Origin: Deltaproteobacteria bacterium | GTDB taxonomy: Bacteria > Myxococcota_A > Polyangia > HGW-17 > JAJRWW01 | Reading direction: 5' to 3' | Length of the DNA stretch: 34,146 nucleotides | Assembly (NCBI GenBank): GCA_029938605.1 | Contig: JAOZUO010000086.1 | Coordinates: forward strand, 1-34,146 | Shown: piece by piece, positions 10,973-29,690 of the stretch | Numbering within the stretch: the stretch's first letter is position 1 | Layout of the letters: each line of letters begins with the position of its first letter | Notes under the pieces: generated by a model | What the model was told of the DNA's origin: nothing | What the model saw: only the letters and a program-made list of their open reading frames with translations | The model's database searches: none | Made by a program: the position numbers and the translations under genes

Positions 10973-12202
10973 ATGCAACTGATCTACGATTGGGCACGCG
11001 GCCACCTGTCGATATCCGAGCGCATCTGGAGCGCGCTGACGCCACTGCTCCTTATTGGTTGCTACTTCCTCGTGGCGTTTATTATCTACGCTATCCGATT
11101 CGGACGCGGTGGTTTCCGAGACCGCGAGCTGTCGGCGCGTGTCGGGCTGGCGTCGAGCCCCATCGCGCACTGGTTCCTGTGGTCCATCGGCCCGATGTGG
11201 GGATTGATTAGCCGAAGCGGGATCCCCGCGAACGCCGTGACCTCCTTGTCGTTCCTGATCGCCGTCACCGCTGGTTTGGCCATGGCCATGGGCAGATTCG
11301 CCCTTGGCGGCTGGCTGTTCATCTTGTCCGGAGTCTGCGATCTCATCGACGGCCGCCTGGCGCGGGCCAAGCAGCAGGCAGGTCCATACGGAGCGGCACT
11401 CGACTCCATCCTGGATCGATACAGCGACGCGATCGTGATGTCGGGGCTGGCCTGGTACTACCGTTCGACGTGGGTGCTGCTCCCTTGCCTGGTGGCGCTC
11501 GTGGGCTCGTTCATGATCTCCTACACGCGCGCCAAGGGAGAGGGGCTCCAGGCCAAGATGAAGTCCATTGGCGTGATGCAGCGCCCCGAGCGCGTGCTCC
11601 TGCTGGGCCTCACCGTGGCCTTGAGCCCGATTCTAGCGTCCATCCTCGCGCCCACTGCTCCACATCCCATGCACTGGATCGCGGTGTCTGGCATACTCGT
11701 GCTGGCCGTGACCACGCAGATCACCGCGACACACAGGTTCTTTCATCTGCTGGGAGTGCTCGACGATCGAAAGATCCAGCTGCCGCGACGAAGGCGGGGG
11801 ACGCTGGGGCGGGCCGTGATCAGTGCGTTCATCGCCACTGGAATGGACTTCGCCCTGGTGCTCCTGCTGGTTTCCTCCGGGTTGCTGCCGCCGGTTGTGG
11901 CGACCGGGCTGGGCTGCATTCTTGGGGCAGTCATCAACTTCGCGATCAACCGGCTCTGGACCTTTGACAGCCACGGGCCGGCGATGCTCCAGGGCCGGCG
12001 GTACATCCTGGTGAGCTTGAGCAGCGCACTGTTGAACTCCGGCGGGGTCGCCGTGCTGCTTCTCGTGCCCGATATTGACTACCGCTTGGCATGGGTGCTG
12101 GCTCGCGGGCTGGTTTTCGTGACCTGGAACTTCCCGCTTCAACGCGACTACGTCTTCGCCAAGGACGCGTCTCCTGCCCACAGCTATGACGGGCTGGCGT
12201 AG
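10973..12202 (+). CDS. Phosphatidylinositol-phosphate synthase-like CDP-alcohol transferase fused to GtrA domain
   Basis: A 409-residue two-domain membrane enzyme. The N-terminal part has the complete CDP-alcohol phosphotransferase signature D-x2-DG-x2-AR-x8-G-x3-D-x3-D (D123, D126, G127, A130, R131, G140, D144, D148). Downstream come SYTRAKGEG near residue 183 and GVMQRPERV near 202, which resemble the inositol-phosphate-binding elements of mycobacterial PIP synthase and archaeal archaetidylinositol-phosphate synthase. From about residue 280 a GtrA-like four-helix domain follows (AVINFAINRLWTFDS and a closing WNFPLQRDYVF). Known family members join CDP-diacylglycerol and inositol phosphate to give phosphatidylinositol phosphate. 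GtrA proteins are implicated in moving lipid-linked sugars across membranes, so this fusion may couple synthesis to translocation (inference). The next gene starts 12 bases on. Confidence 0.85.
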   Translation: MQLIYDWARGHLSISERIWSALTPLLLIGCYFLVAFIIYAIRFGRGGFRDRELSARVGLASSPIAHWFLWSIGPMWGLISRSGIPANAVTSLSFLIAVTAGLAMAMGRFALGGWLFILSGVCDLIDGRLARAKQQAGPYGAALDSILDRYSDAIVMSGLAWYYRSTWVLLPCLVALVGSFMISYTRAKGEGLQAKMKSIGVMQRPERVLLLGLTVALSPILASILAPTAPHPMHWIAVSGILVLAVTTQITATHRFFHLLGVLDDRKIQLPRRRRGTLGRAVISAFIATGMDFALVLLLVSSGLLPPVVATGLGCILGAVINFAINRLWTFDSHGPAMLQGRRYILVSLSSALLNSGGVAVLLLVPDIDYRLAWVLARGLVFVTWNFPLQRDYVFAKDASPAHSYDGLA

Positions 12203-12214
12203 GAGCTGGACATC

Positions 12215-15175
12215 GTGGGCAACGACAGCGCAGGCTCTCGGCCTGGAACGAAGATTCTGACCCCCGAGCCGACGCCCAGCCGCGTTGCCCGTGCCACCGA
12301 GGTCGTGCTCGGTGGCGTTTCCGCCCTTGCCCATCGCCATCCTTTCAAGACGCTGCTGCTGGCCAGCGTGCTCACCGCGGTGGCGCTACTGTCCGCCCGG
12401 AAGCTGGTGGTGGATCCGGACATCGCCAACATGTTGCCACGCTCCGTTGAGAGCACGCGGAATCTCGACCAACTCAAGGCCCGGTTCGGCGGCATCGGAT
12501 ACGTCACGGTGCTGGTCTCGGGCGCAGACACCGAAAAGCTGAAGCGTTTTGCCGGGCTGCTGGCCAGTCGCCTCGAGAAGCTCCCGGAGGTGCGGTTCGT
12601 CGACTACCGCCGACCAGTCGAGTTCTTCAAGAGCCGAGCCTTCTACTATATGGAGCTCGAGGATCTCCGCGAGATCAAGCGTCGCGTGGACAAGCGGGTC
12701 AAGTGGGAGAAGCTGCGGGCCAACCCATTGTACGTCGACCTCGAGGACACCCCGCCGCCCAGGATCGATGTCGAGGACATCGTCGACAAACAAAAGCGCA
12801 GGGCGCGCCGACGCTTTCGTTTGCTCCAGCAGGATGGGGACGACTACTACGTCGATCAGGCCGGGCGACGCCTGCTGCTGCTCATCAAGCCCGCCGCGGG
12901 ATCCACGGATCTGGACTTCTCTCGAAGCGTGCTCGAGCGGATCAAGCGGACGGTGGCCGGATTGCTGCGCGAAGCCCCCAATCCCGCCATCAAGGTGGCC
13001 TACTCCGGCCGCTACACCAAGCGTGTCGAGCAACAGGACGCCATCACGCAGGATCTCCGGTTCACCTCCATCGTCGCTCTGATCCTGATGCTGCTGTACC
13101 TCGGGTTCCATTTCCGGCGGGTGACGAGCGTCGGGCTGGTGATGGGACCGCTGCTGATCGGGCTGGTCTGGACCTTTGGCTGGGCTGCGGCGATGGTGGA
13201 CTCGTTGAACCTCCTGTCCGCCTTCATCGGCGTCATTCTGCTTGGCATGGGAATGGACCACGGCATCCACTTGCTCGGACGATATCAGGCGGAGCACAAC
13301 GCGGGAGAGGCGGGAGATGAGGCCGTGCGGAAGGGGTTCGCTTCCACGGGACGCGGGGTTGTCGTGGCCGCGACGACCACCGCCGCTGCCTTCATTGGCC
13401 TGGGGCTCACGGAGTTCCGCGGCTTCCACGAATTCGGCGTGATCGCCGCCGGAGGAGTAGTGGCGCAGCTGATCGCCTACGTGCTCGTGATGCCGGCGCT
13501 GATCGCGCTGGCGACCAGGCTTGGCTGGCGCGTACCTGACCGGCACCACCAACGCCCTTCGCCTCTGTGCACACACGTTAAACGGTGGTCACCGCTTCTG
13601 TTTTGGATCAGCGTAGTCGCACTCGGCGCGGTTATGCTCGACGTTGGGCAAGTACGGTTCCAGTACGATTTCGCCGCGCTCGACCGCCGGGACCTACCCT
13701 CCTACCGACTCGACCACGACGTGAACAAGCTGCTCGGATACTCACAGACGCCACTGGTCGTACTCACAGAGAGTGAACGGGACGCCCGTCGCGTGACGGA
13801 GGAGATTCAACAGCGCCAAAGGAGGCGTGGCGCGTCGTCGGGGGTGCACTTCACCGCCACGCTGAGAGACTTTATTCCTCGGCAGCAGACCGAAAAGCAC
13901 CGCTTGATGCTGGCGATCACTCAGGTGCTTTTGGACGCGGATCAGAAGTCCCTGACCGCCAAGGAGCATAAGCGTGTGGACGCCCTCCTCCGAGCGGCCA
14001 GACATCCCCCTTTCGGGCCGAACGACCTGCCGCAGGAGGTCCAGCGGCAGTTCCGGGCCGAGGACGGTCAGGGCCGCTTCGTGCTCGTCTTTCCGGCGAT
14101 CCGGCTCAGTGACGGTGCCAAGGTCCGCCAGCTGGCGCGCGAGCTCAGGAACCTGCCGCTCGCGAGCGACTCGAGCAAGATCTCCGCCGCCGGAGAAGCC
14201 ATGGTGCTCGCTGACGTGTTGGACCTGATCTTTCGCGAGGCTCCTCGGCTCATGATGGTCAGCGTGGCGTTCGTCTTTGTCGTGCTCTGGCTTCTCATGG
14301 GAAGCCTGCGAACCGCGCTGCTCGGTTTGGTACCCCCGACTGTTACGTTACTGGCGACCGTCGGGCTGATGTCACTGGCGGATCTGCGATTCAACTACCT
14401 CAACATTGTAATGATACCTGTTCTCTTCGGCGTGGCTGTGGACGGTGGAGTCCACCTGGCGCTCCAGGGCCAGCGTACGGATTTTTACCCGGACGTACTG
14501 GCCAACGTGGGCCGGGCCATTTCCGGCTCCCTGGCGACAACGATGCTGGGATTTGGCTCACTCATGTTGATCGACCACCCGGGGCTCCGCTCCCTGGCGC
14601 AGCTCGCGCTGCTCGGGCTCAGCGTAAACCTGCTGGTCTGCCTGCTCCTGATGCCGGCGTTGTTGGCGCTGCCGAAGGTCATTCAACGGCGGTGGGATGC
14701 AGCCAAGCCCTCATCCGACCAGATCGGCGTGGTCGGCGTTCTGGCAACCGTGGGAGGCGCCGGCTACTCGCCCATCGCGCCGGGCACAGTGGGCGCCCTC
14801 GCGGCCATTCCCGCGGGATGGGCTCTCGCCCAGCTCATCTGGCCAGCGCAGGCCGCTCTCCTGGCCGCGTCCACGCTCCTGTCGGTGTGGATCGTAAAGT
14901 GCTTTCTGGTCGGCCGACATGAGCGAGACCCTCAGGAAATCGTGCTCGACGAGTTCATCGGCGTGCTCATCGCGCTGGCCTTCGTGGAGTGGCGCTGGCC
15001 CTGGGTGATCGCCGCATTCCTGCTCTTCAGGCTCTTCGACATCTGGAAGCCGTGGCCCATCCGCACCGTCGATCGGCGCGCACCAGGCGCGTGGGGCGTT
15101 ATGGGAGACGACGTCCTGGCAGGGCTCGCCGCCGGAGCGGTGCTCCTGTGCGCCCGCTTCGTGGTCCTTTTCTAG
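12215..15175 (+). CDS. Lipid-type RND exporter fused to PgpA phosphatase domain
   Basis: A 986-residue protein beginning at a GTG with ribosome-binding site TAGGAGC. Residues 1-830 form an MmpL/HpnN-like RND exporter: helix 1 near residues 45-65, a periplasmic loop with DPDIANMLPRS, helices 2-6 containing GMGMDHGIHLLGRYQ (D348), a second loop and helices 8-12 containing VAVDGGVHLALQG (D743). From residue 838 to the end it is a full PgpA-type phosphatase: YSPIAPGTVGAL, LDEFIGV (D912, E913), FRLFDIWKPWPI (D942, K945) and GVMGDDVLAG (D965, D966). PgpA enzymes dephosphorylate phosphatidylglycerophosphate; PgpA-like proteins also act on phosphatidylinositol phosphate in Bacteroides inositol-lipid clusters, as I recall. 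Next to a PIP-synthase-like gene, the fusion most likely removes the phosphate and exports the product. I know of no described protein with this layout. Confidence 0.9.
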   Translation: MGNDSAGSRPGTKILTPEPTPSRVARATEVVLGGVSALAHRHPFKTLLLASVLTAVALLSARKLVVDPDIANMLPRSVESTRNLDQLKARFGGIGYVTVLVSGADTEKLKRFAGLLASRLEKLPEVRFVDYRRPVEFFKSRAFYYMELEDLREIKRRVDKRVKWEKLRANPLYVDLEDTPPPRIDVEDIVDKQKRRARRRFRLLQQDGDDYYVDQAGRRLLLLIKPAAGSTDLDFSRSVLERIKRTVAGLLREAPNPAIKVAYSGRYTKRVEQQDAITQDLRFTSIVALILMLLYLGFHFRRVTSVGLVMGPLLIGLVWTFGWAAAMVDSLNLLSAFIGVILLGMGMDHGIHLLGRYQAEHNAGEAGDEAVRKGFASTGRGVVVAATTTAAAFIGLGLTEFRGFHEFGVIAAGGVVAQLIAYVLVMPALIALATRLGWRVPDRHHQRPSPLCTHVKRWSPLLFWISVVALGAVMLDVGQVRFQYDFAALDRRDLPSYRLDHDVNKLLGYSQTPLVVLTESERDARRVTEEIQQRQRRRGASSGVHFTATLRDFIPRQQTEKHRLMLAITQVLLDADQKSLTAKEHKRVDALLRAARHPPFGPNDLPQEVQRQFRAEDGQGRFVLVFPAIRLSDGAKVRQLARELRNLPLASDSSKISAAGEAMVLADVLDLIFREAPRLMMVSVAFVFVVLWLLMGSLRTALLGLVPPTVTLLATVGLMSLADLRFNYLNIVMIPVLFGVAVDGGVHLALQGQRTDFYPDVLANVGRAISGSLATTMLGFGSLMLIDHPGLRSLAQLALLGLSVNLLVCLLLMPALLALPKVIQRRWDAAKPSSDQIGVVGVLATVGGAGYSPIAPGTVGALAAIPAGWALAQLIWPAQAALLAASTLLSVWIVKCFLVGRHERDPQEIVLDEFIGVLIALAFVEWRWPWVIAAFLLFRLFDIWKPWPIRTVDRRAPGAWGVMGDDVLAGLAAGAVLLCARFVVLF

Positions 15176-15462
15176 AAACTACATCACGTTGGTTCAGCTC
15201 GCCCGGTGTTCATCTCAACGGCGGTGGACTACTGCGGGATTTCACCCATCGGTAAAACGAACCTACCAGCTCGGTCTTTACTCGGTTCCGGTACCCGTCG
15301 CACCGGGATGAATAGTACCTGGAGCAACCATCCAGCGAAGCGCCGAGCAGCGAGACGACGATGAAAAGCAAAATCACCAGCCAAGAACCGCGAGGCCGGT
15401 AGAGTCGCTGCGATTGCTCTCCATGCCCCCCTTGACGCTCTCGGGCAAGAGCGCGCAATCCC

Positions 15463-15478
15463 TTGGCCAATTGTCCAA
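15463..15478. promoter_or_regulatory. Palindromic operator candidate, copy 1
   Basis: TTGGCCAATTGTCCAA, an imperfect 16-base palindrome of the form TTGGYC-N4-GRCCAA. It ends 12 bases before TATACT (15491-15496). A bound protein would cover the -35 position of that promoter. Confidence 0.55.
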
Positions 15479-15711: not shown

Positions 15712-15750
15712 ATTCAGTTATGTTTCCTCCAATTACGAGGTCTACTGGCA

Positions 15751-18048
15751 ATGCTCGAACGCGTTCTCACCCGCATGACCACCTGGCTCTTGCACCACCG
15801 GATTTTGGTGATCATCGTCTGGCTGCTTCCTCTGCCGGTGCTGATCTACGGCTACCTGAACGTTAACTCCGTCCTCAAGAGTATCGTCGGGTCGAACGAT
15901 AAGGCGCAGTCCACCATCGTCAGCAACAAGCTGGCGGAGGACTTCTCCCGGCAGACGCAGTTCCTGGCTCTGGTCAGTTTTCATCACGACACAGAGACAG
16001 CGGATGACACGCGGTTCAACGCATCGACAGAAAAGGTCCACGCAGCCATCGCCTCGATGAAGTGCGTGAAGAAAGTCACGGCCTATCCAGAGCTTCCAAT
16101 CCGGTCGCTCCTGATCTCCAAGTCCGGACACACGCAGTTCTCGATCATCGAGATCGGTGTACCGGTCAATGAGTACACCCAAGCCGAAAAGTGTGTGGCC
16201 GCCATGCGAAAGCGCATCGCGGACCTGAAGCGGAGCTTGCCGTTACCGGATCAGGAGGTGTTGATCACCGGTACGCCCGCCGTGAACCTGGATATCGGTG
16301 ACATTGTCATGCGAGACACCCGCAAGGCTGAGGGCACCGTCATCCTGGTCGCCCTTATACTGCTGATCTGGATGTTCCGCAGCGTTGCGGGAGCCTTCTT
16401 GCCGCTCATCACGGCGAGCCTCGCCGTGATGAGCACCCTGACGGTGGTCTATTTCCTGGGCCAGGCGTACCGGATATCCATTTACGTCTCGACCGTTTCG
16501 ACCATGACCGGTCTGGCTTTGGGCCTGGACTATGCGCTGCTTTATGTGACCCGATTCAAGGAGGAGCTGGCCAATGGCCGGGAGACAACCGAAGCGCTGG
16601 TGCTCACCTCCGGTACGGCGGGCAAGGCCATCGGGGGTTCGGGGATCCTGGTGATGTTCGGCTTCGCCGGGCTGTTCCTGCCCGATCTCGTGTTTCCCCG
16701 CTCGGTGGCGCTGGCCGGCGTGCTGAGCGTCTTCTTCACGCTGGTTTGGACACTCACCTTCATGCCCGTGCTGCTGAGCCTGCTCGGGCGCGCCATCCAT
16801 TGGCCCCGGTGGCGTTGGATCACCAACAGTCACGGCGCCGTGGACCGGTTCTGGGGCCGTTGGGGACGGTTGGTGCTTCGCCGACCGGTAGTGCCAGTGG
16901 TGCTGGTGATTACCATCGTCGCGACCTGCGCGCCCCACGTCTTCGATCTCAAGGTCAAAAATCCCCGGCATGAGATCATCCCGACCTCAGTGGAGGCGCG
17001 GCGTGGCGTGGATCGGATCATCGAGGTGTCGGGGGTGGGACAGATCTACCCGATCACCGTCGTGGTGGAGATCCAGGACGGCGGCACATGGAAGGATAAG
17101 AAGCGTCAGGCCAAGCTAATCAAGGTCCTTAAGGAGGTGCGAACTTGGCCCAACGTGGCCAAGATTCAGAGCGCGGACCTGCTCATGGACTATTCGTTCA
17201 CGATCATGGGCAAACGTATCGGCTTCGACTTCGGGGAGGGGTTCGCCCGGAAGTTCATCAGCGACAACTACCGGGCCGTCAGTATCGACATCCAAGCCAA
17301 AGACGTGGACGACAAAAAACTGGGGGATCTGGTGGTGCTGCTACGCAAAGAGTTCCCCAAGTCCTTCGCCGACGATCCGGGAATCAAGACATGGATCGGC
17401 GGCCGCCCGGCCATGTCCTGGGAGACCCTCACCATGCTCGTGGGCAGTCTTGCCACCATGGTCCCCATCGTGATGGTGGCCGCGTTCCTGGCCATGGCAT
17501 TGCTGTTCAGATCGCTGCTCATTCCGTTCAAGGCCATCGTGATGAATATCATCTCATTGTCGACCACCTTCGGCATCCTGGTGGTGGTGTTTCAGTACGG
17601 CTATGGCCTCGAGCTCCTGGGGTACCACGGCCCACCCCCGGGCGCGCTCAGCCTGGCCACCCCCATCGTGATGTTCTGCGTGCTCTTCGGCGTCTCCATG
17701 GACTACGAGATCTTCCTCGTTTCACGTATCCAGGAACGCTGGAAAGAAACAAAGTTCGCGGGGATGACGACCGCGGACGAGACACGGTTGACCAACGAAG
17801 CGATTCTCGAAGGGATCTCCCGCACCGGAGGCATCATCACCAACGCGGCCTTCCTGATGGTCATCACCTTTGCGGCGTTCGTTTATGGGTCCCTGCTGCC
17901 AATGAAGGAGATGGGCTTTGCCTTGGCCTTGGCGGTTGCTCTGGACGCAACCCTGGTGCGAATGATGCTCGTGCCTGCGGTTCTGAGACTGGCCGGGCGC
18001 TGGAACTGGTGGTGGCCCGGACGAAATGAACCCACCGAAAAAACCTGA
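15751..18048 (+). CDS. MmpL-type RND lipid exporter
   Basis: A 765-residue RND protein of the MmpL subfamily. Helix 1 (HHRILVIIVWLLPLPVLIY) is followed by a periplasmic domain, helices 2-6 and a second repeat. The Asp-Tyr proton-relay pairs of MmpL proteins are both present: GLALGLDYALLYVTRF (D260, Y261) and FGVSMDYEIFLVSRI (D651, Y652), almost the same positions as in mycobacterial MmpL3. Such proteins flip or export large envelope lipids across the inner membrane using the proton gradient. The ATG at 15751 has GAGG ten bases upstream; the frame is open further upstream, but that part overlaps the operator region and looks non-coding. Two palindromic operators lie in front of the gene, pointing to separate regulation from the RND-PgpA gene before it. 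Confidence 0.9.
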   Translation: MLERVLTRMTTWLLHHRILVIIVWLLPLPVLIYGYLNVNSVLKSIVGSNDKAQSTIVSNKLAEDFSRQTQFLALVSFHHDTETADDTRFNASTEKVHAAIASMKCVKKVTAYPELPIRSLLISKSGHTQFSIIEIGVPVNEYTQAEKCVAAMRKRIADLKRSLPLPDQEVLITGTPAVNLDIGDIVMRDTRKAEGTVILVALILLIWMFRSVAGAFLPLITASLAVMSTLTVVYFLGQAYRISIYVSTVSTMTGLALGLDYALLYVTRFKEELANGRETTEALVLTSGTAGKAIGGSGILVMFGFAGLFLPDLVFPRSVALAGVLSVFFTLVWTLTFMPVLLSLLGRAIHWPRWRWITNSHGAVDRFWGRWGRLVLRRPVVPVVLVITIVATCAPHVFDLKVKNPRHEIIPTSVEARRGVDRIIEVSGVGQIYPITVVVEIQDGGTWKDKKRQAKLIKVLKEVRTWPNVAKIQSADLLMDYSFTIMGKRIGFDFGEGFARKFISDNYRAVSIDIQAKDVDDKKLGDLVVLLRKEFPKSFADDPGIKTWIGGRPAMSWETLTMLVGSLATMVPIVMVAAFLAMALLFRSLLIPFKAIVMNIISLSTTFGILVVVFQYGYGLELLGYHGPPPGALSLATPIVMFCVLFGVSMDYEIFLVSRIQERWKETKFAGMTTADETRLTNEAILEGISRTGGIITNAAFLMVITFAAFVYGSLLPMKEMGFALALAVALDATLVRMMLVPAVLRLAGRWNWWWPGRNEPTEKT

Positions 18049-18277: not shown

Positions 18278-18943
18278 TTACGGCGTCGACTTCACTGAGC
18301 GACCATCCCGGCCGTGATGACTGTCTGCCGGCCGAAGCACACGCTTAATCTGGTCACAGAGCATGCGACCTGCGCGGCTGAGGTCCTCGCTGGTGAGCTC
18401 GTCCAAGCGCTCCGCGATCCAGTGACCAACGGTCCTGTCCAGCACGAACACGAGCTCCACCAGCAAGGACAAGGGTAGGTCACCGCGCACCGCCCCCACT
18501 TGCTGACCGTCACGAAGAAAGCGCTCTATCCGCTCTCGCGACTTCTTGCAGACCTCTTTGACGGCCACGTCCGTCACACCGGAGTATTCGAATTCATGCG
18601 TTGCTCGCATGAGCGCGACGTAGGTTGGATTCTCACGCCCATATCGAATGATGCAGTCGATGTGCCCATGGACCGACCTCCAGAATGCTGCGGCCGACAC
18701 CTCCGGTGGTGGTGGCGGGAGGTCCTTTTCCAACTGGTCGAAGACATCCGTGACAACAGTAGTGAACAGGTCGGCCTTGTCATCGAAGTAATAGTACATC
18801 GCGCCCTTGCTGACGCCGGCCCTCTCGATGATCCTGTTGTACGAAGCTCCCTCGAAACCGTGAGTCGCGAACTCCTCGGCGGCGGCGCTGAAGATCGCAG
18901 CACGCTTGTCGGGATCGAGACGAAACAAACGGGGACTGGGCAT
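18278..18943 (-). CDS. TetR/AcrR-family regulator closing the inositol-lipid series
   Basis: A 221-residue TetR protein: RLDPDKRAAIFSAAAEEFA and HGFEGASYNRIIERAGVSKG, then AMYYYFDDKADLF give the helix-turn-helix at about residues 12-58; the rest is an all-helical ligand domain with a Pro-rich run (PPPPPEV) at about 76-82. The ATG has a good AGGAG ribosome-binding site. It starts 16 bases after the SRPBCC gene and is probably the last gene of the long minus-strand series, so the operon may carry its own regulator. It converges on the MmpL gene. Confidence 0.9.
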   Translation of the reverse strand: MPSPRLFRLDPDKRAAIFSAAAEEFATHGFEGASYNRIIERAGVSKGAMYYYFDDKADLFTTVVTDVFDQLEKDLPPPPPEVSAAAFWRSVHGHIDCIIRYGRENPTYVALMRATHEFEYSGVTDVAVKEVCKKSRERIERFLRDGQQVGAVRGDLPLSLLVELVFVLDRTVGHWIAERLDELTSEDLSRAGRMLCDQIKRVLRPADSHHGRDGRSVKSTP

Positions 18944-18959
18944 GGGACGCTCCTGGTTT

Positions 18960-19661
18960 TCAACGAGCTGGTGCTGCTGTTCGGCTCTCGCCGAAACCGC
19001 GCCGGCGCTTGGTGAAGTACCGCTGGATGTCGTCCGCCATATTGCGCGCGGACCGCCGGTTGCGCTTGCGCTCGAAGCTCCGGGGAAGCAGGGGCGAAAT
19101 CTTCAAGAAGTAGGCGTACGCGACCTTGCACCACCCCGGATGCCCAGGCAAGGGCTCCAATCGGACATATCCGGCTGCGGCCTGAAAGCTGCCGTCGAGC
19201 ATCTTCCAGTGACTGCGGTAGCGTTTCGGTTCGTACCAGGTTTTGTGCTTGAGGAACATGCCCTTTGCGTGCGTGAGCTGCATCAGGTTGATCTCCCAAC
19301 CAGGACCTTTCTCAAGGGTTCTGCACGACGCCACACCTTTCAGGGCTTTGGCCAGCTCGCCGCACCTGCTGAGCGAGCGCCACGCCTCTTGCATCGGTAC
19401 ATCCAGCTGAAAGTGGGCCACCCAGCCCGGAATGCCTCCATCGCTACGAGCAGGCACGAGCCGAATGCCCCCCAGCTCGGGCCGACGCGACCTCACAGTC
19501 ATGACACGCTGCTCGTAGAACAGGTTCTCGATCCAATGATATCCGTAGAACAGCAACGCTGCAGCCACTGCCATACCCAGCAGGGATAGCATCAGCCAGC
19601 TCAGGCGGCGCCCCCACCGTGCCGCGAATGGGCTTCGCGATGCTCGGTTCACCAGCTTCAT
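18960..19661 (-). CDS. Membrane-anchored SRPBCC/START-like protein
   Basis: A 233-residue protein with a single N-terminal membrane helix (LSWLMLSLLGMAVAAALLFYG). A soluble part of about 170 residues on the far side follows. This part has the outline of a SRPBCC (START/polyketide-cyclase-like) fold: FQLDVPMQEAWRSLSRCGEL, then KGVASCRTLEKGPG, HKTWYEPKRYRSHWKMLDG and YVRLEPLPGHPGWCKVAYAY, with a Lys/Arg-rich tail. Such folds bind hydrophobic ligands in a central cavity. The assignment is from pattern and is less certain than the enzymes nearby. The start overlaps the stop of the RND gene by four bases (ATGA), so it is likely to work with that exporter, perhaps as a periplasmic lipid carrier (inference). 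Confidence 0.65.
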   Translation of the reverse strand: MKLVNRASRSPFAARWGRRLSWLMLSLLGMAVAAALLFYGYHWIENLFYEQRVMTVRSRRPELGGIRLVPARSDGGIPGWVAHFQLDVPMQEAWRSLSRCGELAKALKGVASCRTLEKGPGWEINLMQLTHAKGMFLKHKTWYEPKRYRSHWKMLDGSFQAAAGYVRLEPLPGHPGWCKVAYAYFLKISPLLPRSFERKRNRRSARNMADDIQRYFTKRRRGFGESRTAAPAR

Positions 19662-22635: not shown

Positions 22636-23655
22636 CTACAGGTTGCGTATAGCGTCGGTCAGCAGCACGTCCCAAGACTTCTCCGTGTTGGCCCGGATGC
22701 TGGTGGTGCAAGCTTCGCAAGTGTTTGACGCGAGGAAGTGTTCGACGATCTCCCGCCGACTCTTGTAGCTCCTGATCTGCAGACCGCATGGAGACAGCGT
22801 GCCGTCCGGGTTTACTACCAAGAACCGGTCCCCGGCGCGGCAACCGGGCATCCGCTCTTTTTCGAAGAACCAGACCATCCGCTGGAAGACGTACTCCGAG
22901 GTGAAGATCGTGCCATACCTACGCTTGAAGTCCAGGAGCTGCCTGATGACGTTTCTGAGCTCGCTAAGCTCCTCCTTCGGGACCATCCAACTTTTGTCGC
23001 CCGTCCTGAGCCAGGTGTAGGTCGAGAAGCTGATCTTCACTCCGTGCTTGCGAGCAAACTCCGCCAGCAAGATGAGATCATGGTAGTTCTGACGCTGCAC
23101 AACGCAGGCGAGCGTGATCCCCTTGCGCTGCTCATCCTTGATGTCCAGGAGTAAGCGCTCTATCTTTCGGAATAGGCCGGGGATGCTTCGGAACACGTCA
23201 TGGCGCTCATCGGGAAAGTCCAGAGAAACCGAGAACTCATCCACTCCCGCACCCTTGAGTGCGTAATACGTCTCCTTTTTGAGCAACGCTGCATTGGTAG
23301 TTAGAACGACAATGGGTGTGGAGCCGGGACGGCGGATCTCCTTCACGATCTGCAGGATGTCGGGTCGTAGCAGCGGCTCACCACCTGAGATCTGGGCCAC
23401 CAACGGGTCGAGCTCCCGACAGCGCTCTCCGAAACGCGCCGGTGGTGCCGGAGGGCAGGTCTCCTGGTCGGAGCCAAGGTGGCAGTGCTCACACCGGGCG
23501 TTGCACCGATAGGTGACCTCGAACGAGACGCATAGAGGTTTCTTCAATATGTAGTTCCGGAGACCGTGACGGGCGATCCGAAAGTTGCGAAGCGCTTCGC
23601 TCGCAGTTTTCTGACCTACATCGAGCGCACCGAGGATACGAAGCATGTTGCTCAT
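22636..23655 (-). CDS. Radical SAM protein with C-terminal cysteine cluster (SPASM/Twitch-like)
   Basis: A protein of about 339 residues. The CNARCEHC motif (C-x3-C-x2-C at about residues 51, 55 and 58) binds the 4Fe-4S cluster that cleaves S-adenosylmethionine; QISGGEPLLRPD is the GGE motif. The C-terminal part has GCRAG, SPCG and TCEAC, cysteines fit for an auxiliary cluster of the SPASM/Twitch type. Start: an ATG at 23655 with GGAAGG ten bases upstream is preferred over an upstream TTG at 23685. The substrate is unknown. In this setting it could modify the inositol lipid head group or chain, but SPASM proteins mostly act on peptides. It is not a close match to the HpnH hopanoid enzyme. Confidence 0.85.
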   Translation of the reverse strand: MSNMLRILGALDVGQKTASEALRNFRIARHGLRNYILKKPLCVSFEVTYRCNARCEHCHLGSDQETCPPAPPARFGERCRELDPLVAQISGGEPLLRPDILQIVKEIRRPGSTPIVVLTTNAALLKKETYYALKGAGVDEFSVSLDFPDERHDVFRSIPGLFRKIERLLLDIKDEQRKGITLACVVQRQNYHDLILLAEFARKHGVKISFSTYTWLRTGDKSWMVPKEELSELRNVIRQLLDFKRRYGTIFTSEYVFQRMVWFFEKERMPGCRAGDRFLVVNPDGTLSPCGLQIRSYKSRREIVEHFLASNTCEACTTSIRANTEKSWDVLLTDAIRNL

Positions 23656-23701
23656 GGTTTCAAAACCTTCCATCAAGCGGGCCAATTATGATCATTGATG
23701 C

Positions 23702-25261
23702 TTACGGGCTGTGTTGCTTCCGATTCTCCATCCTCTTCCGATCTCGCCGAAGGAATGATCTGACCTGGGTTACGATCGCCTTCTCCTCAGGCTCGAGCTT
23801 TCCTACAGCGAGGAGGCTGAGGTAGGCGCCGATCATCACCACGAACAGAGCAGCCCGACCGGCGCTTCCCCAGCTCACGCTGAACAGAAGCACTGTGACC
23901 GGGAGCATGCTTCCGGCAGCGGCGAGGACGGGAAGGATGAGGTTTCGCCCCAAGGGGTGAGCTCGCGCGGTGTGGTAAACGGCGAGCACGAGGACGATCC
24001 CAAGAACCGCATACGCTGACGCGACCGCAAAACCGGCCCCCCGGATCCCCAGCCGGGGTACCAACAAAAAGCACAATCCCGCGAGCAGCAATACCGAGAC
24101 GGAAGTAATCGCCGCCATCGTCTTGGATCGGCCGGACATAACCAGCAGGCTCTCGGCTGGGTACGTGATCGCGCTGAAGCCGTGCCCCAGGGCCAAGGCA
24201 GTGAGAGTGATCCATGCCGCCGAACCTCTTACGTCGAACAGCAACAGCGCCTCACGGCCAAAACAGGCGAAGATCGCAACCAGGGGAAGTGTACAGATCA
24301 GGAGCCACCGGGTGGCGAGGCCGTAGCTCCGAACCAGCCGCTTCTGATCGTTGGCGTGGACCAGCTGGGCTGTCAGCGGCGCCAGGATCGGCTCAAACGC
24401 CTGGCGCGCGCGCTTGATGAGGCTGATGAGCTCCACGACGACGCCATAGACGCCCACCATGGCCGGCTGTAGAAATACACCGACCAGGAATAGATCGGTT
24501 TTGTACCCCAGGAAGGTGAGCGTATCCACGGCTGCCAACGGCCAGGAGAACTTCACGATGCGTCCGCAGTCCGCTCTCTGTAGCTGCTGATGTTTGTGTG
24601 TGGCGTTACGCTTGAAGACCTTCCGTAAGGCGATCAACGCGGCCACTGCTGCAGCGGCGAAGGCGCCTGTCTGGGCCAGAATCAACGTTTCAGCCCCCCA
24701 ACCAAGCGGATAGAGCGTACCCGCCAACGCCAGAAATACGAACGGTTCCACCCCCCCGCGGATATAGGCATCGAACCGCATGATCTTGAAGGCGCGTATC
24801 GCCGCTAGGAACACCTCCAGGATCGTGAGTACCGGGATGGTCAGCGAGGCCAACCGGATGAGGCCTGCGAGCTCCGGTTGGTTGAATACGTGCACCGCGA
24901 TCGGGTCGGCCAAGGCGACCAGCCCCAACATTACTCCGATCCCTAAACCGGCTCCTAGAGAGACATGGAACAGCACGAGAGATCGGGGAGAGATAGCCCG
25001 ACTTGAGAGCTCACGGATCAACGAACGGTCGAGCCCGAACCGGGAAATCTTGGCGACCACCTCCGCCGTGCTCCAGGCGAGGAAGTACAGCCCGAGCACG
25101 GTCTTTCCGTAGAAATGTGCTGCAAATAAAAGGAAAAGGACGCGGCTCGCTTTTCCCACGATCCCCAGCACGTTGACTACGACTCCCCGAGCGAGGTCAG
25201 TGGCATCCTTCACATGCTTGCTGTTCATCTCCTCGGGCCGCTCCGGAGGGCCGCCGGTCAT
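23702..25261 (-). CDS. MOP-superfamily flippase (Wzx/polysaccharide-export type)
   Basis: A 519-residue integral membrane protein with 12-14 predicted helices and few charged residues between them. The opening (DLARGVVVNVLGIVGKASRV, then FYGKTVLGLYFLAWS) is characteristic of Wzx-type oligosaccharide-lipid flippases. It would turn a lipid-linked head group from the cytoplasmic to the periplasmic face of the inner membrane. The ATG overlaps the stop of the preceding CDP-alcohol transferase gene as ATGA, with GAGGAGG just upstream. A lipid flippase set directly after phosphoinositol transferases suggests that the product is a glycosylated or head-group-modified inositol lipid (inference). Confidence 0.85.
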   Translation of the reverse strand: MTGGPPERPEEMNSKHVKDATDLARGVVVNVLGIVGKASRVLFLLFAAHFYGKTVLGLYFLAWSTAEVVAKISRFGLDRSLIRELSSRAISPRSLVLFHVSLGAGLGIGVMLGLVALADPIAVHVFNQPELAGLIRLASLTIPVLTILEVFLAAIRAFKIMRFDAYIRGGVEPFVFLALAGTLYPLGWGAETLILAQTGAFAAAAVAALIALRKVFKRNATHKHQQLQRADCGRIVKFSWPLAAVDTLTFLGYKTDLFLVGVFLQPAMVGVYGVVVELISLIKRARQAFEPILAPLTAQLVHANDQKRLVRSYGLATRWLLICTLPLVAIFACFGREALLLFDVRGSAAWITLTALALGHGFSAITYPAESLLVMSGRSKTMAAITSVSVLLLAGLCFLLVPRLGIRGAGFAVASAYAVLGIVLVLAVYHTARAHPLGRNLILPVLAAAGSMLPVTVLLFSVSWGSAGRAALFVVMIGAYLSLLAVGKLEPEEKAIVTQVRSFLRRDRKRMENRKQHSP

Positions 25262-26409
25262 GCTGCCTCCTCGCGAAGCTCAACAGCGGCTTGCACGATC
25301 TTGCGCCAGAACAACGCGAACGAAAACAGAGCGACACAGAACCCGAGCACGGCGAATAGGACGATGGCGCTCCGATGTCCCGCAAACGAGACCAGGAAGA
25401 AGAGCGCGGCGAAGAAGTCGCGCCGGAGGCCCAGGAACAGCAGGCGGACCAGTCGGAGCAACAACGTACCGCTCGTCTCAGCGGCGCGCGCTATCGAGCG
25501 GTCCACCCAGACGAACGACCCATCGGGCGCGTGTTCTCGTACAAACCGAAAAAGGATGAACAGCAGGCCCACCGTCCCTAGCACCAGAGCGCAAGCCAGC
25601 GCGAGCCCCACCGCCCCGAAACCCTCTCTGCCCCAACCAATGGCGAGGCCGACGAGACAGGCGAGGTAGGTCACATTGTCGATGGAGGTGTCGATCCAAG
25701 CCCCCCTAGGCGACTCGGTCAGGGTGGCACGGGCCATCTCACCATCAACTCCGTCGAAGGCGGAAGCCAACTGGAACAGCGCCCCTGCCATGACCAACGT
25801 CCAGTATCCGGTGAGTGCGATGCAGACGGCTGAGCCGAGTCCGATAATCAGGTTGACCAGACTGGCATGCCAGGCTCGCAACCTGAATGAGAGGAACAGA
25901 AATGCGATTGGCCGACTTATTTTTCGGTTGAGGTGTCGAGATACCCAGCCATCGGTGGGCTTACCCGAGGCACCGAGAAGAACCCAGGAGGACACGCGGG
26001 CCTCCCTTGGGGTGCGGGCTAGAAGGATCCACCTGCTATCAACGAGTCGCGTGGTCTCGGCGACGCGGCGGCCTCCTTCGGGGGGGACGAGCCAGTCCCC
26101 TACCGTTCCAAAGTACAGTCCCTCACGGTACCGTGGGGTCACGAGTCTAAACACGCCCTCCGGCTTGAGGGAGTCGAGCTCCTTGAGCAGCGCTTTGTCA
26201 ATCGTCAAACCATCGGGGAGCACGAGCAGGGGCTGGTCGGCGTCGCAACCCGTGAGCGCGCTGTCTTCTACGATGATCGCCCCTAGCCGCTCCCCTACTC
26301 GCCGATTTCGCTCTCGGGTGCTCAGGCCCACCACCGCATGGTTATCTCCCGGCACCAAAAGAAGACACAGGCGATGGCCAATCGTCTCCGCTGCAGTAGG
26401 TTTCTTCAT
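25258..26409 (-). CDS. CDP-alcohol phosphotransferase with N-terminal nucleotidyltransferase-like domain (DIPP synthase-like)
   Basis: A 383-residue protein. Residues 1 to about 130 are soluble (LLLVPGDNHAVVGLSTRERN, then PLLVLPDGLTIDKALLKEL) and look like a reduced nucleotidyltransferase fold without the usual Gly-rich loop. Residues 160-380 form a membrane CDP-alcohol phosphotransferase with a perfect signature (D219, D222, G223, A226, R227, G236, D240, D244). This layout recalls the archaeal and thermophile inositol-phosphate cytidylyltransferase/di-inositol-phosphate-phosphate synthase, except that the active cytidylyltransferase here is a separate gene just upstream. It would use CDP-inositol as donor, with a polyol or lipid acceptor. 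Start: the ATG at 26409 with GGAG is chosen over a TTG two codons earlier. Confidence 0.8.
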   Translation of the reverse strand: MKKPTAAETIGHRLCLLLVPGDNHAVVGLSTRERNRRVGERLGAIIVEDSALTGCDADQPLLVLPDGLTIDKALLKELDSLKPEGVFRLVTPRYREGLYFGTVGDWLVPPEGGRRVAETTRLVDSRWILLARTPREARVSSWVLLGASGKPTDGWVSRHLNRKISRPIAFLFLSFRLRAWHASLVNLIIGLGSAVCIALTGYWTLVMAGALFQLASAFDGVDGEMARATLTESPRGAWIDTSIDNVTYLACLVGLAIGWGREGFGAVGLALACALVLGTVGLLFILFRFVREHAPDGSFVWVDRSIARAAETSGTLLLRLVRLLFLGLRRDFFAALFFLVSFAGHRSAIVLFAVLGFCVALFSFALFWRKIVQAAVELREEAA

Positions 26410-26448
26410 GCCCAACTCCGATGCGGTGCATCACGTTGACCAATACTG

Positions 26449-27213
26449 TCAGCCATTCAAGCTCCGGAGCCGCCGTCGCCCGTAAAGCATTGCATTCGCG
26501 TGAGCCAACATCTTCGGAGTATCCACGTCCTGCCAGAAGCCGTCTCCGATATCGAGCACCTGCATCAGGCCCTTCGACGCCAGCGCCTGGACCCCGTCGG
26601 AGAGCGAAGCGTTGCCCACCTGGGCGCGGACCTCGGCCAGCGCGTCCATCAATCCCGTCGTGCAGATGAAGACCCCGGTGTCGACGCAGTTGTACGTCAT
26701 CAGCTCCTTGCCGATGGTCTGGATTAGCCCATCTCGCTCCTGAACCTTGGTGGCATCCTCCAGATCAAAGACGCGCTCCACTTTGTAGTCGACGCATAAC
26801 GTCGCACCGTCCCGTGGTGGGTGGTGCTCCCGGATCAGCTCCATGGTCTCGTTTCCAAATACGTGGTCGGCCATTGTCAGCACGAACTCACCTGCCACAT
26901 AGGGCCTGGCGCACAGGACCGAGAGACCGTTCGCCAGATGAAAGTCTGGGTTGAAGACGAACTGCAGCCGAAGAATCCCTGTGTAGCAGTCCTCGATCTC
27001 ACGCTGTAGGCGATCGGCCTCATGACCCAGCACGATGATCACCTCGCTACACCCGGCAATTTCCAAGCTGCGCAGCGTTCGATTCACTAGCCGCTCGCCA
27101 CCCACCTCGAGCAACGGTTTTGCCGAAGAGGAGGCACCCGGTGCGGCGAGTCGGGAACCGAGCCCCGCGGCGAGCACGACGGCCGGCCGACCGCCAGTCC
27201 GCAAAGCGCCCAT
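26449..27213 (-). CDS. Nucleotidyltransferase, probable inositol-1-phosphate cytidylyltransferase
   Basis: A 254-residue GT-A-fold nucleotidyltransferase: VVLAAGLGSRL is the nucleotide-binding loop, followed after a Ser/Ala-rich stretch by KPLLEVGGERLVNRTLRSL; VLTMADHVF holds the metal-binding Asp and GDGFWQDVDTPKML the second metal site. This end pattern (W-x-D-x-D-T/S) and the neighbours fit the inositol-1-phosphate cytidylyltransferases, which make CDP-inositol from CTP and inositol 1-phosphate. Other NTP transferases share the fold, so the substrate rests on context. It starts one base after the inositol-phosphate synthase stop (TAG then ATG) with a GAGGGG ribosome-binding site, implying coupled translation. 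Confidence 0.8.
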   Translation of the reverse strand: MGALRTGGRPAVVLAAGLGSRLAAPGASSSAKPLLEVGGERLVNRTLRSLEIAGCSEVIIVLGHEADRLQREIEDCYTGILRLQFVFNPDFHLANGLSVLCARPYVAGEFVLTMADHVFGNETMELIREHHPPRDGATLCVDYKVERVFDLEDATKVQERDGLIQTIGKELMTYNCVDTGVFICTTGLMDALAEVRAQVGNASLSDGVQALASKGLMQVLDIGDGFWQDVDTPKMLAHANAMLYGRRRLRSLNG

Positions 27214-28533
27214 CTAGGCCCCCTCAAAGTTCTCGGACAGGTGCGTGATGGGCGCCTCCCCCGCAAAGACCCGCAAAGTGTTTTTCAACCGCATGTGCTG
27301 AATGAACAGGTCGTTCTCCGGGACGTGGCCCTCCGCCACATGCGGCGCCTTGAAGAAGAAAGACATCCACTCCTGGATACCGGAGCGGTCGGCGCGTTGG
27401 GCGAGGTCCAGGCAAAGCGCGACATCCAATACGATCGGGGCCGCCAGGATCGAATCGCGGCACAGGAAATCGATCTTAATCTGCATCGGGTAGCCGAGCC
27501 AGCCGAAGATGTCGATGTTGTCCCACCCCTCCTTGGCGTCACCGCGAGGTGGATAGTAATTGATGCGGATCTTGTGATACATGTCGCCATACAGCTCGGG
27601 GTAGATGTCCTTTTGAAGGATCGTATCCAACACGCCCGCCTTGCTGACTTCCTTGGACTTGAAGCTCTCCGGATCGTCGAGCACCTCGCCATCACGGTTG
27701 CCAAGGATGTTGGTGGAAAACCAGCCTTTGATGCCAAGCATCCGGGTCTTGAGGCCGGGTGCCAGGATGGTCTTCATCAGCGTCTGACCAGTCTTGAAGT
27801 CCTTGCCCGCGATGGCCACACCGCGCTGCTTGGCAAGCTGCTCGAGGGCTGGGCAGTCCGCGTTGAGATGCGGTGCGCCATTGGCGAACGGGACCCCTTC
27901 TTTGATGGCGGCGTAGGCGTAGAGCTGACTGGGCGAGATGGCCTGATCGTTCTGATCGAGCCCTTGCTCGAAGGTGCCGATGGTGGCGTGACAGCCTGAA
28001 GGCCGGGTGAAGATCTCGGTGGAACCGCACCACACCATTACGGCTCGCGATGCGCCGGTTTCGTCGATCTTGGAACGAATGTCTGCTCGGAGCGCTTCGG
28101 CCAACTCGCGACGGCTTGTGTCCGGCTTGACGTTCGGGCCGTCGAGCTTCTTGACGAACCGTTGGTCGAAAGCAGCAGGCATGGGTTTGATATCGTGTAA
28201 GAAGTCCTTTACTGGTTCCAGGGTCTCAGGGCTGAGCACCTGTGCTCGCGAGGCAGCATCGTAGGCATCGTCTGGAAACACGTCCCAGGCGGCAAAGGTG
28301 AGATCGTCGAGCGGAGCCAGATCAACGATCTCTTTGATCAAGGGACAGTGGCCGACAGATCGCTGCCCAAGCCTAATGGTCTGCATCTGCGTGACCGATC
28401 CGATGGGACGCGACAATCCACGCCTGATCGACTCCACTCCAGCAATAAAGGTCGTGGACACCGCCCCTAGTCCAGGAGTCAATACCAACAACTTGCCTCG
28501 ATGGGGTGCCACTTTACATACTTTTTCGGACAT
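27214..28533 (-). CDS. ino1: myo-Inositol-1-phosphate synthase
   Basis: A 439-residue member of the inositol-3-phosphate synthase family, which converts glucose 6-phosphate to 1L-myo-inositol 1-phosphate with NAD. Visible blocks: the N-terminal Rossmann region (LLVLTPGLGAVSTTFIAG), FANGAPHLNADCPALEQLA, the catalytic AGKDFKTGQTLMKTILAPG, GWFSTNILGNRDG and the closing HKIRINYYPPRGDAKEGWDN with GYPMQIKIDFLCRDSILAAP. The length is near that of bacterial (Bacteroides-type) enzymes, shorter than eukaryotic ones. The ATG at 28533 has GGAG; the frame is open 28 codons further without one. It supplies the inositol phosphate for both the lipid branch and the CDP-inositol branch encoded around it. Confidence 0.93.
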   Translation of the reverse strand: MSEKVCKVAPHRGKLLVLTPGLGAVSTTFIAGVESIRRGLSRPIGSVTQMQTIRLGQRSVGHCPLIKEIVDLAPLDDLTFAAWDVFPDDAYDAASRAQVLSPETLEPVKDFLHDIKPMPAAFDQRFVKKLDGPNVKPDTSRRELAEALRADIRSKIDETGASRAVMVWCGSTEIFTRPSGCHATIGTFEQGLDQNDQAISPSQLYAYAAIKEGVPFANGAPHLNADCPALEQLAKQRGVAIAGKDFKTGQTLMKTILAPGLKTRMLGIKGWFSTNILGNRDGEVLDDPESFKSKEVSKAGVLDTILQKDIYPELYGDMYHKIRINYYPPRGDAKEGWDNIDIFGWLGYPMQIKIDFLCRDSILAAPIVLDVALCLDLAQRADRSGIQEWMSFFFKAPHVAEGHVPENDLFIQHMRLKNTLRVFAGEAPITHLSENFEGA

Positions 28534-28652
28534 TCTGTTTCTCCATGGAACTCTGTTGAGCGTCTGCGAGAGATCCAACTCTAATGCTGAGTTGTCTTGA
28601 CTATTTCCTATGCGCAATACTCACGCATTCTCTGTTGGCACCAACGCACGAG

Positions 28653-29690
28653 CTACTGTATTGGAACCGCCGTGTAACCTGTTTTCTTGAGATCGGTGCG
28701 CGTGCGATTTGTGGCGTACCGTTGCCAAATGAGCGCAACCAAGAAGATCCCGTTGCCGATGAGCAGTCGATACCAAAGGTACAGATCCACCCGGTTCAAC
28801 ATGCCTGCGATGGCGAGAAGATAAGAGTGGGGGGCCAGGGAGTTGAGCGCCCAGAGCTGAGTCGGCCAGTAGTTGTGGCGACGGTAGATACGCACGGTTT
28901 CGTCGTCGACCGCACAACGCCACTCCCCGCGGAGCGCCCGGGGATTCGTAACGCTAATGAGGCGCGTCTCGGCTGTAATAACCCCCTCATACAGCTTGGT
29001 TACCAGGATCCTGAACCAACCGGCATCCTCTTCCCGTAGGCGCTGGATGCGATCCCGGATTTGGTCCAATGACTCGGATCGGCCGTCCCAGTTGGGGTTG
29101 GTCGACTCCAGGTACGACTCCTTGTAGTAGTCGTACAAGTAAATCTGGGCCACGGCCGTGAGGGTGGCCACAACCAAGAGCGTCGTCTGCAGCGGCTGCT
29201 GGTTGCTGTCCCAGACATGGTAGAAAGCGGCGAAGCAGGTCGCGATGGCAACCACCATATCCATGCTGCCGTCGAAGGCGCGGCCAAACTCCGAGGTCAG
29301 ATTCTTGGCCCGGGCCAGAATGCCGTCAGCTCCGTCCAGGATAGAGGCAGACCACAGCAAGACGCCACCAAGGACCATCAGCCACGGTGAACCCACGAAC
29401 CAGCAAGCTGCCGCAATGAGCCCGACCAGCGTCGCCAGCACGGTGACCTGGTTCGGGGTGATCGGCGCTCTGAAGATCAGCGCGACGAAGCTGTAGGCCA
29501 GCGGGCGGTGCACCCAGACGTTGACCGGATCTTCGACGTCTGGGTGCTTGACCACAGAAGAGAATGAGGGCAGCCGAGGTGCCGCCACCTGCTCGGTCTC
29601 AGGTCGTTGGTCCAGCTGCTCAGTGCGCATGAGGTCGTAGCTCATATTGATTGTGGAGCTTCGGAAGCTGCAGTGTCCATTGGCGCTCAT
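28653..29690 (-). CDS. CDP-alcohol phosphotransferase, third in the cluster
   Basis: A protein of about 345 residues with a polar N-terminus of some 60 residues, then membrane helices carrying the complete CDP-alcohol phosphotransferase signature (D119, D122, G123, A126, R127, G136, D140, D144). A long soluble insert rich in Arg, Asp and Glu follows (YDYYKESYLEST, then RSESLDQIRDRIQRLREED), and more helices at the end. It lacks the SY-x-RAK and RPER elements of the enzyme at 10973, so a different acceptor or donor is likely, for instance CDP-inositol with diacylglycerol or ceramide (inference). It opens the minus-strand series. Start codon uncertain: ATGs at 29690, 29645 and 29630 all lack a clear ribosome-binding site. 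A 119-base gap separates it from the synthase gene. Confidence 0.85.
   Translation of the reverse strand: MSANGHCSFRSSTINMSYDLMRTEQLDQRPETEQVAAPRLPSFSSVVKHPDVEDPVNVWVHRPLAYSFVALIFRAPITPNQVTVLATLVGLIAAACWFVGSPWLMVLGGVLLWSASILDGADGILARAKNLTSEFGRAFDGSMDMVVAIATCFAAFYHVWDSNQQPLQTTLLVVATLTAVAQIYLYDYYKESYLESTNPNWDGRSESLDQIRDRIQRLREEDAGWFRILVTKLYEGVITAETRLISVTNPRALRGEWRCAVDDETVRIYRRHNYWPTQLWALNSLAPHSYLLAIAGMLNRVDLYLWYRLLIGNGIFLVALIWQRYATNRTRTDLKKTGYTAVPIQ

Follow-up and report, generated by a model that had tools for sequence, protein, structure and literature searches.

Inositol lipids are comparatively rare in bacteria, according to the available text of PMC9246714 (Heaver et al. 2022). That text describes a cluster in Bacteroides thetaiotaomicron (BT_1522-1526) with a myo-inositol-phosphate synthase (MIPS), a phosphatidylinositol phosphate (PIP) synthase of the CDP-alcohol phosphotransferase family, and a PgpA-family protein (BT_1525) that is most probably the PIP phosphatase. 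B. vulgatus and Prevotella have an alternative cluster, with an NTP transferase, a CDP-alcohol transferase, and a HAD hydrolase, whose functions are unconfirmed; in nearly all species that have MIPS, one of these two clusters lies next to it. The available text names no exporter, and the word "flippase" does not occur in it. We found no account of inositol-lipid export across the Gram-negative envelope in the open-access literature, a search that left subscription papers mostly outside. Here, we consider a locus from an uncultured deltaproteobacterium of the Myxococcota, a relative of the myxobacteria, that carries relatives of both gene sets. The DNA analyzed, which we call the window, is an entire contig of 34,146 bases (C266; JAOZUO010000086.1) from an 8.56-Mb assembly of 359 contigs that is 92% complete. 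The original prediction, made from the sequence of the window alone, described a two-armed cluster for the synthesis and export of inositol lipids. On balance, we favor the reading that the locus consists of two convergent operons, each making and exporting inositol phospholipids by a route of its own, with one MIPS feeding both. This inositol-lipid locus is real and coherent, with parts that are widely conserved, and the enzymes of one operon (arm A) are well supported. We infer the substrate, acceptor, and product of the other operon (arm B), as well as the cargo and export of both arms and its extension to the outer membrane.

All of the gene types named in the original prediction are present as open frames in Pfam and NCBIfam scans, with corrections that are given below. 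The main features are as follows.

10732..10761, +, promoter-like TTGACA-17-TATAAA upstream of arm A; found by eye, weak, and not called by a consensus scan
10973..12202, +, PIP synthase (CDP-alcohol phosphotransferase) fused to a GtrA/DPMS transmembrane domain (PIPS-GtrA); PF01066 1.6e-13, PF04138 2.8e-16
12215..15175, +, RND1-PgpA1, an HpnN-like MMPL/RND protein with an intact C-terminal PgpA domain; PF03176 3e-43, PF04608 1.4e-40
15751..18048, +, MmpL (MmpL3-like) exporter; PF03176 4e-84; closest solved relative MmpL3, 2e-49
18278..18943, -, TetR regulator at the operon end of arm B; PF00440 2.7e-15
18960..19661, -, START/SRPBCC-like protein with one N-terminal transmembrane helix; PF03364 1.2e-4, under the cut-off
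19658..22591, -, RND2-PgpA2, an HpnN-like RND protein with a degenerate PgpA domain; PgpA part 23.0 bits versus the Pfam cut-off of 28
22636..23685, -, radical SAM protein with a weak SPASM-like C terminus; PF04055 2.7e-17
23702..25261, -, Wzx-type flippase; PF13440 4.8e-16, PF01943 1.5e-11
25258..26415, -, CDP-alcohol phosphotransferase B, AF2299/DIPP-synthase-like, with an extra N-terminal domain; PF01066 1.3e-6
26449..27213, -, CTP:inositol-1-phosphate cytidylyltransferase-like protein (IPCT-like), 254 amino acids; NF041135 7e-39, under the cut-off
27214..28617, -, MIPS; PF07994 2e-85, PF01658 1e-32
28653..29690, -, CDP-alcohol phosphotransferase C; PF01066 2e-12

The arms meet between 18048 and 18278. 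Arm A (forward strand) runs from PIPS-GtrA across a 12-bp gap to RND1-PgpA1 and then to MmpL, whose frame is open from a TTG at 15463; the ATG at 15751 is a possible start instead. Arm B (reverse strand) runs from 29690 to 18278 in the order transferase C, MIPS, IPCT, transferase B, Wzx, radical SAM, RND2-PgpA2, START-like, and TetR, with gaps of 44 bp or less or small overlaps. Scans for promoters and terminators across the window gave counts close to the shuffled expectation. Our claims about genes rest on tblastn, Pfam, or genome-wide homology searches and not on the gene caller alone, which may pick wrong frames in G+C-rich DNA: it missed a START copy on contig C311 and a cytidylyltransferase in locus L185.

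Together with MIPS, arm A resembles the B. thetaiotaomicron cluster. The closest solved relative of the window's MIPS is 7NWR (BT_1526; 9e-153), and this is the only intact copy that we found in the assembly; the one other copy, on C241, is truncated (residues 231-465). The CDP-alcohol phosphotransferase part of PIPS-GtrA has PIP synthases as its best solved matches (6wm5, 5d92, and 6h5a). In the available text of PMC4634129, two arginines are proposed to hold the phosphate group of inositol phosphate (R153 and R191 in Renibacterium, R155 and R195 in Mycobacterium tuberculosis). By alignment, the window protein has the CDP-alcohol phosphotransferase motif, with RPER and THR at these two sites. 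Across 20 PIPS-type rows that we selected and aligned, RxER is kept in all 20 and the second arginine in 19. The PgpA domain of RND1 scores 138.9 bits against PF04608 (cut-off 28). Judging from the sequences, it seems well supported that, for each of the three steps from glucose 6-phosphate to phosphatidylinositol (PI), the window encodes a member of a family that includes a tested enzyme. The locus differs from BT_1522-1526 in that PgpA is fused to RND and PIPS is fused to GtrA, a fusion (PF04138) that the original prediction did not mention when it correctly named a PIP-synthase-like enzyme. It also differs in that the scan of the window genes found no AUR1-like or PAP2 gene; two PAP2_3 genes lie on other contigs.

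The RND proteins, with 12 transmembrane helices by a crude count, belong to the RND/MMPL family, as do HpnN and MmpL3, the nearest solved relatives of RND1 (6wu0, 2e-35; 5khn, 1e-34) and of MmpL. Unlike HpnN, the window RND proteins have the extra PgpA domain, and the scan of the window genes found no hopanoid cyclase. The radical SAM protein is only weakly similar to HpnH (47 bits versus a cut-off of 225).

Given these families, MIPS would make inositol phosphate as one pool for both arms. PIPS-GtrA would join it to CDP-diacylglycerol to form PIP, and the PgpA domain of RND1 would strip the phosphate to leave PI. The GtrA domain may aid the lipid in crossing the inner membrane, and the RND part of RND1 may pass PI towards the outer membrane.

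Arm A is a conserved unit that is common in Myxococcota and not peculiar to this locus. We searched 377 genomes of the phylum, including the window's own: RND1-PgpA1 had matches in 24 (E ≤ 1e-100) and PIPS-GtrA in 51 (E ≤ 1e-20). Among the 11 other Myxococcota genomes with PIPS-GtrA at E ≤ 1e-80, 9 have an RND gene 39-113 bp away. Among the best 45 of the 50 non-own genomes that match PIPS-GtrA at 1e-20 (PIPS rows down to about 1e-24), 15 have an RND match (1e-100) within 10 kb. We also scanned 73 RND loci with flanks of up to 10 kb, many ending early at contig ends; this set overlaps the phylum set (the same contigs), and counts from the two were never summed. MIPS, PIPS, and RND are co-located in 23 of the 73, so the co-occurrence of synthase, PIPS, and RND genes in other genomes that the original prediction proposed to look for does exist. 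A single reading frame encodes both RND and PgpA in 9 of the 73, and both PIPS and GtrA in 28 of the 30 loci that have a PIPS frame. The 61 loci whose RND is at least 36% identical contain PIPS in 33 cases, GtrA in 34, MIPS in 21, PAP2_3 in 20, and PgpA in 10. No PIPS, MIPS, or IPCT was found with the distant RND genes of the window's own genome and of G001 (L039, L040, and L042), or at L181.

MIPS lies near PIPS-GtrA in loci of Corallococcus, Myxococcus, Polyangium, and Bradymonadaceae. In two Myxococcaceae loci (L072 and L086), a PAP2_3 gene (PF14378) sits between the two; we take this family to include yeast AUR1. The arrangement in Myxococcus xanthus AM003 (L206) is MIPS (2428-3750), PAP2_3 (3752-4675), and PIPS-GtrA (4674-5885), with an RND gene of the same family (13529-15946) 7.6 kb beyond this tandem. 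The PIPS-GtrA fusion of AM003 is 49% identical to ours over 4-402. The AM003 locus differs from the window in the presence of PAP2_3, in an RND match that ends before the PgpA domain, and in having no IPCT match within the 16 kb examined. Ceramide phosphoryl-myo-inositol is reported in M. xanthus (Lorenzen et al. 2014, as cited in the available text of PMC9246714), and the MIPS-PAP2_3-PIPS-GtrA genes probably make it. A 720-residue Polyangium frame that looked like a longer PIPS fusion was rejected: its first 300 residues are apparently in the wrong frame, and PAP2_3 gave tblastn matches in L117, L121, and L122.

Arm B can be compared to the B. vulgatus cluster, as the window has an NTP transferase and a CDP-alcohol phosphotransferase beside MIPS (25258-29690), which fits the logic of a route through CDP-inositol. 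It differs in that Pfam scans of the window genes found no HAD hydrolase, and in having two CDP-alcohol phosphotransferases along with Wzx, RND, START-like, and radical SAM genes. Arm B also resembles the IPCT-DIPP synthase of Archaeoglobus and Thermococcales, in that a pair of cytidylyltransferase and CDP-alcohol phosphotransferase adjoins MIPS, but here the proteins are unfused and clustered with a flippase and an exporter. The closest solved relative of the IPCT-like protein is Archaeoglobus fulgidus IPCT (2xme, 1.5e-23; the best RmlA match is 3.8e-6). Of the 377 genomes, own included, 117 have a homologue at E ≤ 1e-25. MIPS is beside IPCT or within 1.2 kb of it in 14 of 17 non-own loci that we selected, which supports inositol phosphate as the substrate. 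An IPCT-like gene is present in 18 of 23 RND-bearing genomes versus 116 of 376 (hypergeometric p = 1.8e-6, ignoring phylogeny). In many Myxococcota (L182-L191), MIPS adjoins an unfused IPCT-like gene, with no CDP-alcohol transferase motif adjoining.

Transferase B is closest to 4o6m (1.6e-16, residues 28-309) and to the IPCT-DIPP synthase 4mnd (2.5e-13); transferase C resembles AF2299 and DIPP synthase less than B does. Neither has the RxER of PIP synthases in an alignment whose loop region is uncertain for both; RLVR aligns near that site in B. In L106 and L069, homologues of transferase C (52% and 47% identical) have genes for IPCT, LPG_synthase_TM, and RND nearby. More broadly, IPCT with a B- or C-type transferase stands beside RND in L069, L106, L112, and L129-L134. 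In L112 (CSMAG_262), the arm B genes are 84-88% identical to the window's. L129-L134 are from Latescibacterota, with one record labelled Gemmatimonadota, and all six contain MlaC. A fused IPCT-CDP-alcohol phosphotransferase, MlaC, and RND occur in succession in L129-L133; in L129, a membrane protein with no Pfam match comes next.

MlaC and START proteins are lipid carriers, so we take the arm B product to be a lipid. The original prediction's SRPBCC-like protein is indeed an open frame, with a weak family match that falls under the cut-off. The top Foldseek matches of its predicted structure are START domains (3e-5), with a TM-score of about 0.3 and a model pLDDT of 61; we use this poor model as a fold-level hint only. 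If arm B does act on inositol phosphate, the cytidylyltransferase would make CDP-inositol, from which transferase B, C, or both would transfer inositol phosphate to what is most likely a lipid acceptor. Wzx might then flip the product, and RND2 with the membrane-anchored START-like protein might export it.

The window's own genome has other gene sets of this kind. At L038 (C241:1-11706), a PF04464 protein, a glycosyltransferase, Wzx, RND, and a START-like protein (63% identical) stand together with the truncated MIPS (86% identical) and a cytidylyltransferase split by a frame change. L041 (C118:42000-54000) has a glycosyltransferase, a member of the PF04464 glycerophosphotransferase family, Wzx, RND, and a START-like protein, and is perhaps a related export set for another head group. 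At L179 (C38:1-16000), a fusion of a cytidylyltransferase and a class-V aminotransferase is beside two CDP-alcohol transferases and a metallophosphatase. This is perhaps a phosphonate-lipid set; the fusion is presumably like PntC.

The original prediction included two RND-PgpA proteins, and both fusions are real, although only RND1 has an intact phosphatase domain. In an alignment with five other fusions, PgpA2 deviates at 16 of the 33 columns that are invariant in those five, including E913V, K945Q, P946A, D965S, and D966S. Each of the other members deviates at 1-4 of 18-21 such columns, and PgpA1 retains all 33 columns that are invariant among five fusions. The RND part of RND2 is normal: it deviates at 15 of 148 columns, compared to 11-25 of 144-158 for the others. 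PgpA2 thus looks dead as a phosphatase, going by its residues. Its decay fits a CDP-inositol route, in which no PIP is made and there would be no phosphate to remove. RND1 and RND2 group together (SH-aLRT 100) in a quick tree of 72 rows, which left out 16 loci, mostly Myxococcaceae (104 to 72 rows), and the two genes probably arose by duplication in this lineage. The RND of L112 falls beside RND2; its contig, cut at both ends, stops inside RND and before any PgpA.

The families and the conserved neighborhoods support the pathway in the original prediction, from glucose 6-phosphate to PI, with a second CDP-inositol route and RND export, apart from the one PgpA domain that looks dead. That prediction also held that the union of synthesis, dephosphorylation, flipping, and RND export in one locus was, as far as known, not described. 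Arm A by itself does not set this locus apart. The joining of the two routes does: among the loci examined, only the window joins both around one intact MIPS. None of the 73 RND loci has both PIPS and IPCT. Two genomes hold the routes apart: G038 has PIPS-GtrA-RND-PgpA with MIPS at L045 and MIPS with a fused IPCT-CDP-alcohol phosphotransferase at L193, and G340 has MIPS-PIPS-GtrA-RND at L051 and MIPS with IPCT at L196. L057 and L058 each encode, divergent to MIPS-PIPS-GtrA-RND, a fusion of an IPCT-fold domain and a DHQ-synthase-like domain, which is a different protein from IPCT. These fusions lie at L057:13728-15593 and L058:14144-16102, with SDR and PfkB genes near the former, and the region is possibly a cyclitol pathway. 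In the open-access literature, with subscription papers again mostly outside, we found no description of the combined locus, nor of any link in Myxococcota between inositol lipids and an RND exporter or RND-PgpA fusion. As we see it, one arm follows B. thetaiotaomicron and the other follows the proposal for B. vulgatus, and a separate RND exporter serves each; this is the best reading of the arms that we have.

A more specific mechanism is conceivable, and we offer it tentatively, as something we doubt more than we believe. RND-PgpA might be a gated exporter that dephosphorylates PIP at the pump and then passes on PI, and its paralogue might keep the dead PgpA as a docking or sensing part. There would be two assembly lines, each with a dedicated RND, drawing on one pool of inositol phosphate.

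Several observations weigh against two lipid routes with export. PIPS-GtrA is under the NCBIfam cut-offs (112 versus 350 bits for NF052561, 99.4 versus 170 for NF045883, and 140.5 versus 180 for NF040950), and RND1 and RND2 miss that of TIGR03480, for HpnN (294.5 and 294.7 versus 751.85 bits). No RND match was found in 2 of the 11 genomes with close PIPS-GtrA. A second Myxococcus (L207) has the MIPS-PAP2_3-PIPS-GtrA tandem with no RND in 18 kb, and its RND pair is about 36 kb away. Also, in 23 of the 61 RND loci with at least 36% identity, none of PIPS, GtrA, MIPS, or IPCT was found within the available flanks. Because some RND loci are without inositol genes and some PIPS genes are without a nearby RND, the cargo of the RND proteins may vary between loci. 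A family-level search gave one other genome, G001, which is in the same genus and 86% complete; it had no MIPS match, PIPS-GtrA was matched in the GtrA part only, and its RND is 30% identical and without PgpA. The START-like protein occurs in just 1 of the 377 genomes, the window's own, and thus provides no evidence from co-occurrence. As for the substrate of arm B, the cytidylyltransferase family is broad. The IPCT-like protein scores 134 bits against NF041135, which describes the fused IPCT-DIPP synthase (cut-off 580); the proteins are separate here. Other homologues are fused to an aminotransferase (in the window's own genome) or to the DHQ-synthase-like domain. Caulobacter CpgD is likewise an IPCT-related cytidylyltransferase that activates a lipid head group, but its substrate differs: it makes CDP-glycerate, and the available text of PMC12275187 mentions no link to MIPS.

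If arm A makes and exports PI, arm B might instead form a soluble inositol phosphodiester of the di-inositol-phosphate type, or another polar compound, with RND, Wzx, and the START-like protein serving something else. We think this unlikely, though it deserves weight. The nearest solved relatives of transferase B use soluble substrates, which favors a soluble product, and both B and C resemble AF2299 and DIPP synthase. The RLVR near the inositol-phosphate site of B may leave room for a soluble inositol-phosphate acceptor, to judge from the alignment. By a crude hydropathy count, B has only 4 transmembrane helices and C only 5. The count thus finds no sign of the three or four additional C-terminal helices that, according to the available text of PMC4634129, are typical of CDP-alcohol phosphotransferases whose acceptor is a lipid. 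In addition, at L192 and L193, a fused IPCT-CDP-alcohol phosphotransferase adjoins MIPS with no RND match. However, a solute would need neither a flippase nor an RND protein, B-type fusions stand beside MlaC and RND in L129-L133, and C-type enzymes stand with IPCT, LPG_synthase_TM, and RND in L069 and L106. A CDP-inositol route to PI has also been proposed for Bacteroidetes (PMC9246714, available text). Or the arms might act in series, with arm B adding a second inositol phosphate from CDP-inositol to the PI of arm A to give a bis-inositol phospholipid. The single locus, the single MIPS, and the sister RND proteins would suit this idea, as would Caulobacter, where the IPCT-related cytidylyltransferase is needed for the second phosphoglycerate on a ceramide lipid (PMC12275187, available text). 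Still, each arm has its own RND, and the arm B modules beside RND in L069, L106, and L129-L134 are without PIPS, so that a nearby arm A is not required; we consider the series improbable.

We give no greater credence to arm B making a glycan or polymer precursor that is decorated with inositol phosphate and flipped by Wzx, akin to teichoic-acid chemistry. The START-RND-Wzx sets at L038 and L041 do sit with a glycosyltransferase and PF04464, and L038 also retains remnants of MIPS and IPCT, but neither PF04464 nor a glycosyltransferase was found among the window genes scanned. Neither is on the L112 contig, a weak point as that contig is short and cut at both ends. That PIPS-GtrA and RND-PgpA make another anionic phospholipid, such as phosphatidylglycerol, and that MIPS serves arm B only, seems very unlikely to us: PgpA families are named after phosphatidylglycerophosphate and MIPS is outside the arm A operon here, but MIPS is near PIPS-GtrA in the four groups listed above, and the arginine pair for inositol phosphate is retained. 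We give almost no credence to the idea that lipid and efflux genes with no common role have come together here by chance. This genome does contain many RND genes, but gene pairs are conserved across families and phyla, the operon spacing is tight, and the close RND-PIPS-GtrA spacing in 9 of 11 genomes contradicts chance.

The conserved neighborhood of PIPS-GtrA and RND, at times with PgpA, names concrete genes for inositol-lipid synthesis and export in Myxococcota. Relatives are present in M. xanthus, a reported producer of ceramide phosphoinositol in which gene removal is routine. The fusion of RND to a phosphatase suggests that the last synthetic step is physically coupled to transport, and the decayed phosphatase of arm B provides a natural control.

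Beside the two arms, an AcrB-HlyD-TolC pump and a Crp-type regulator (3647-10541) are divergent from arm A. We rejected the view that this block belongs to the system: just 3 of the 73 loci (L069, L081, and L113) are flanked by AcrB-type genes. In the phylum set, they are at L060 and L045, the latter on the same contig as L081. We judge this frequency, without a calculation, to be near chance for such common genes. Two more TetR regulators lie at 2611-3267 and 30176-30895; the latter has its closest matches among fatty-acid regulators (FadR, 1e-16, under the cut-off). Finally, an open frame of more than 1,000 residues (31108-34146, +) that has no Pfam match runs off the contig; it has a signal-peptide-like start, is rich in cysteine, and contains DxDxDG-like stretches.

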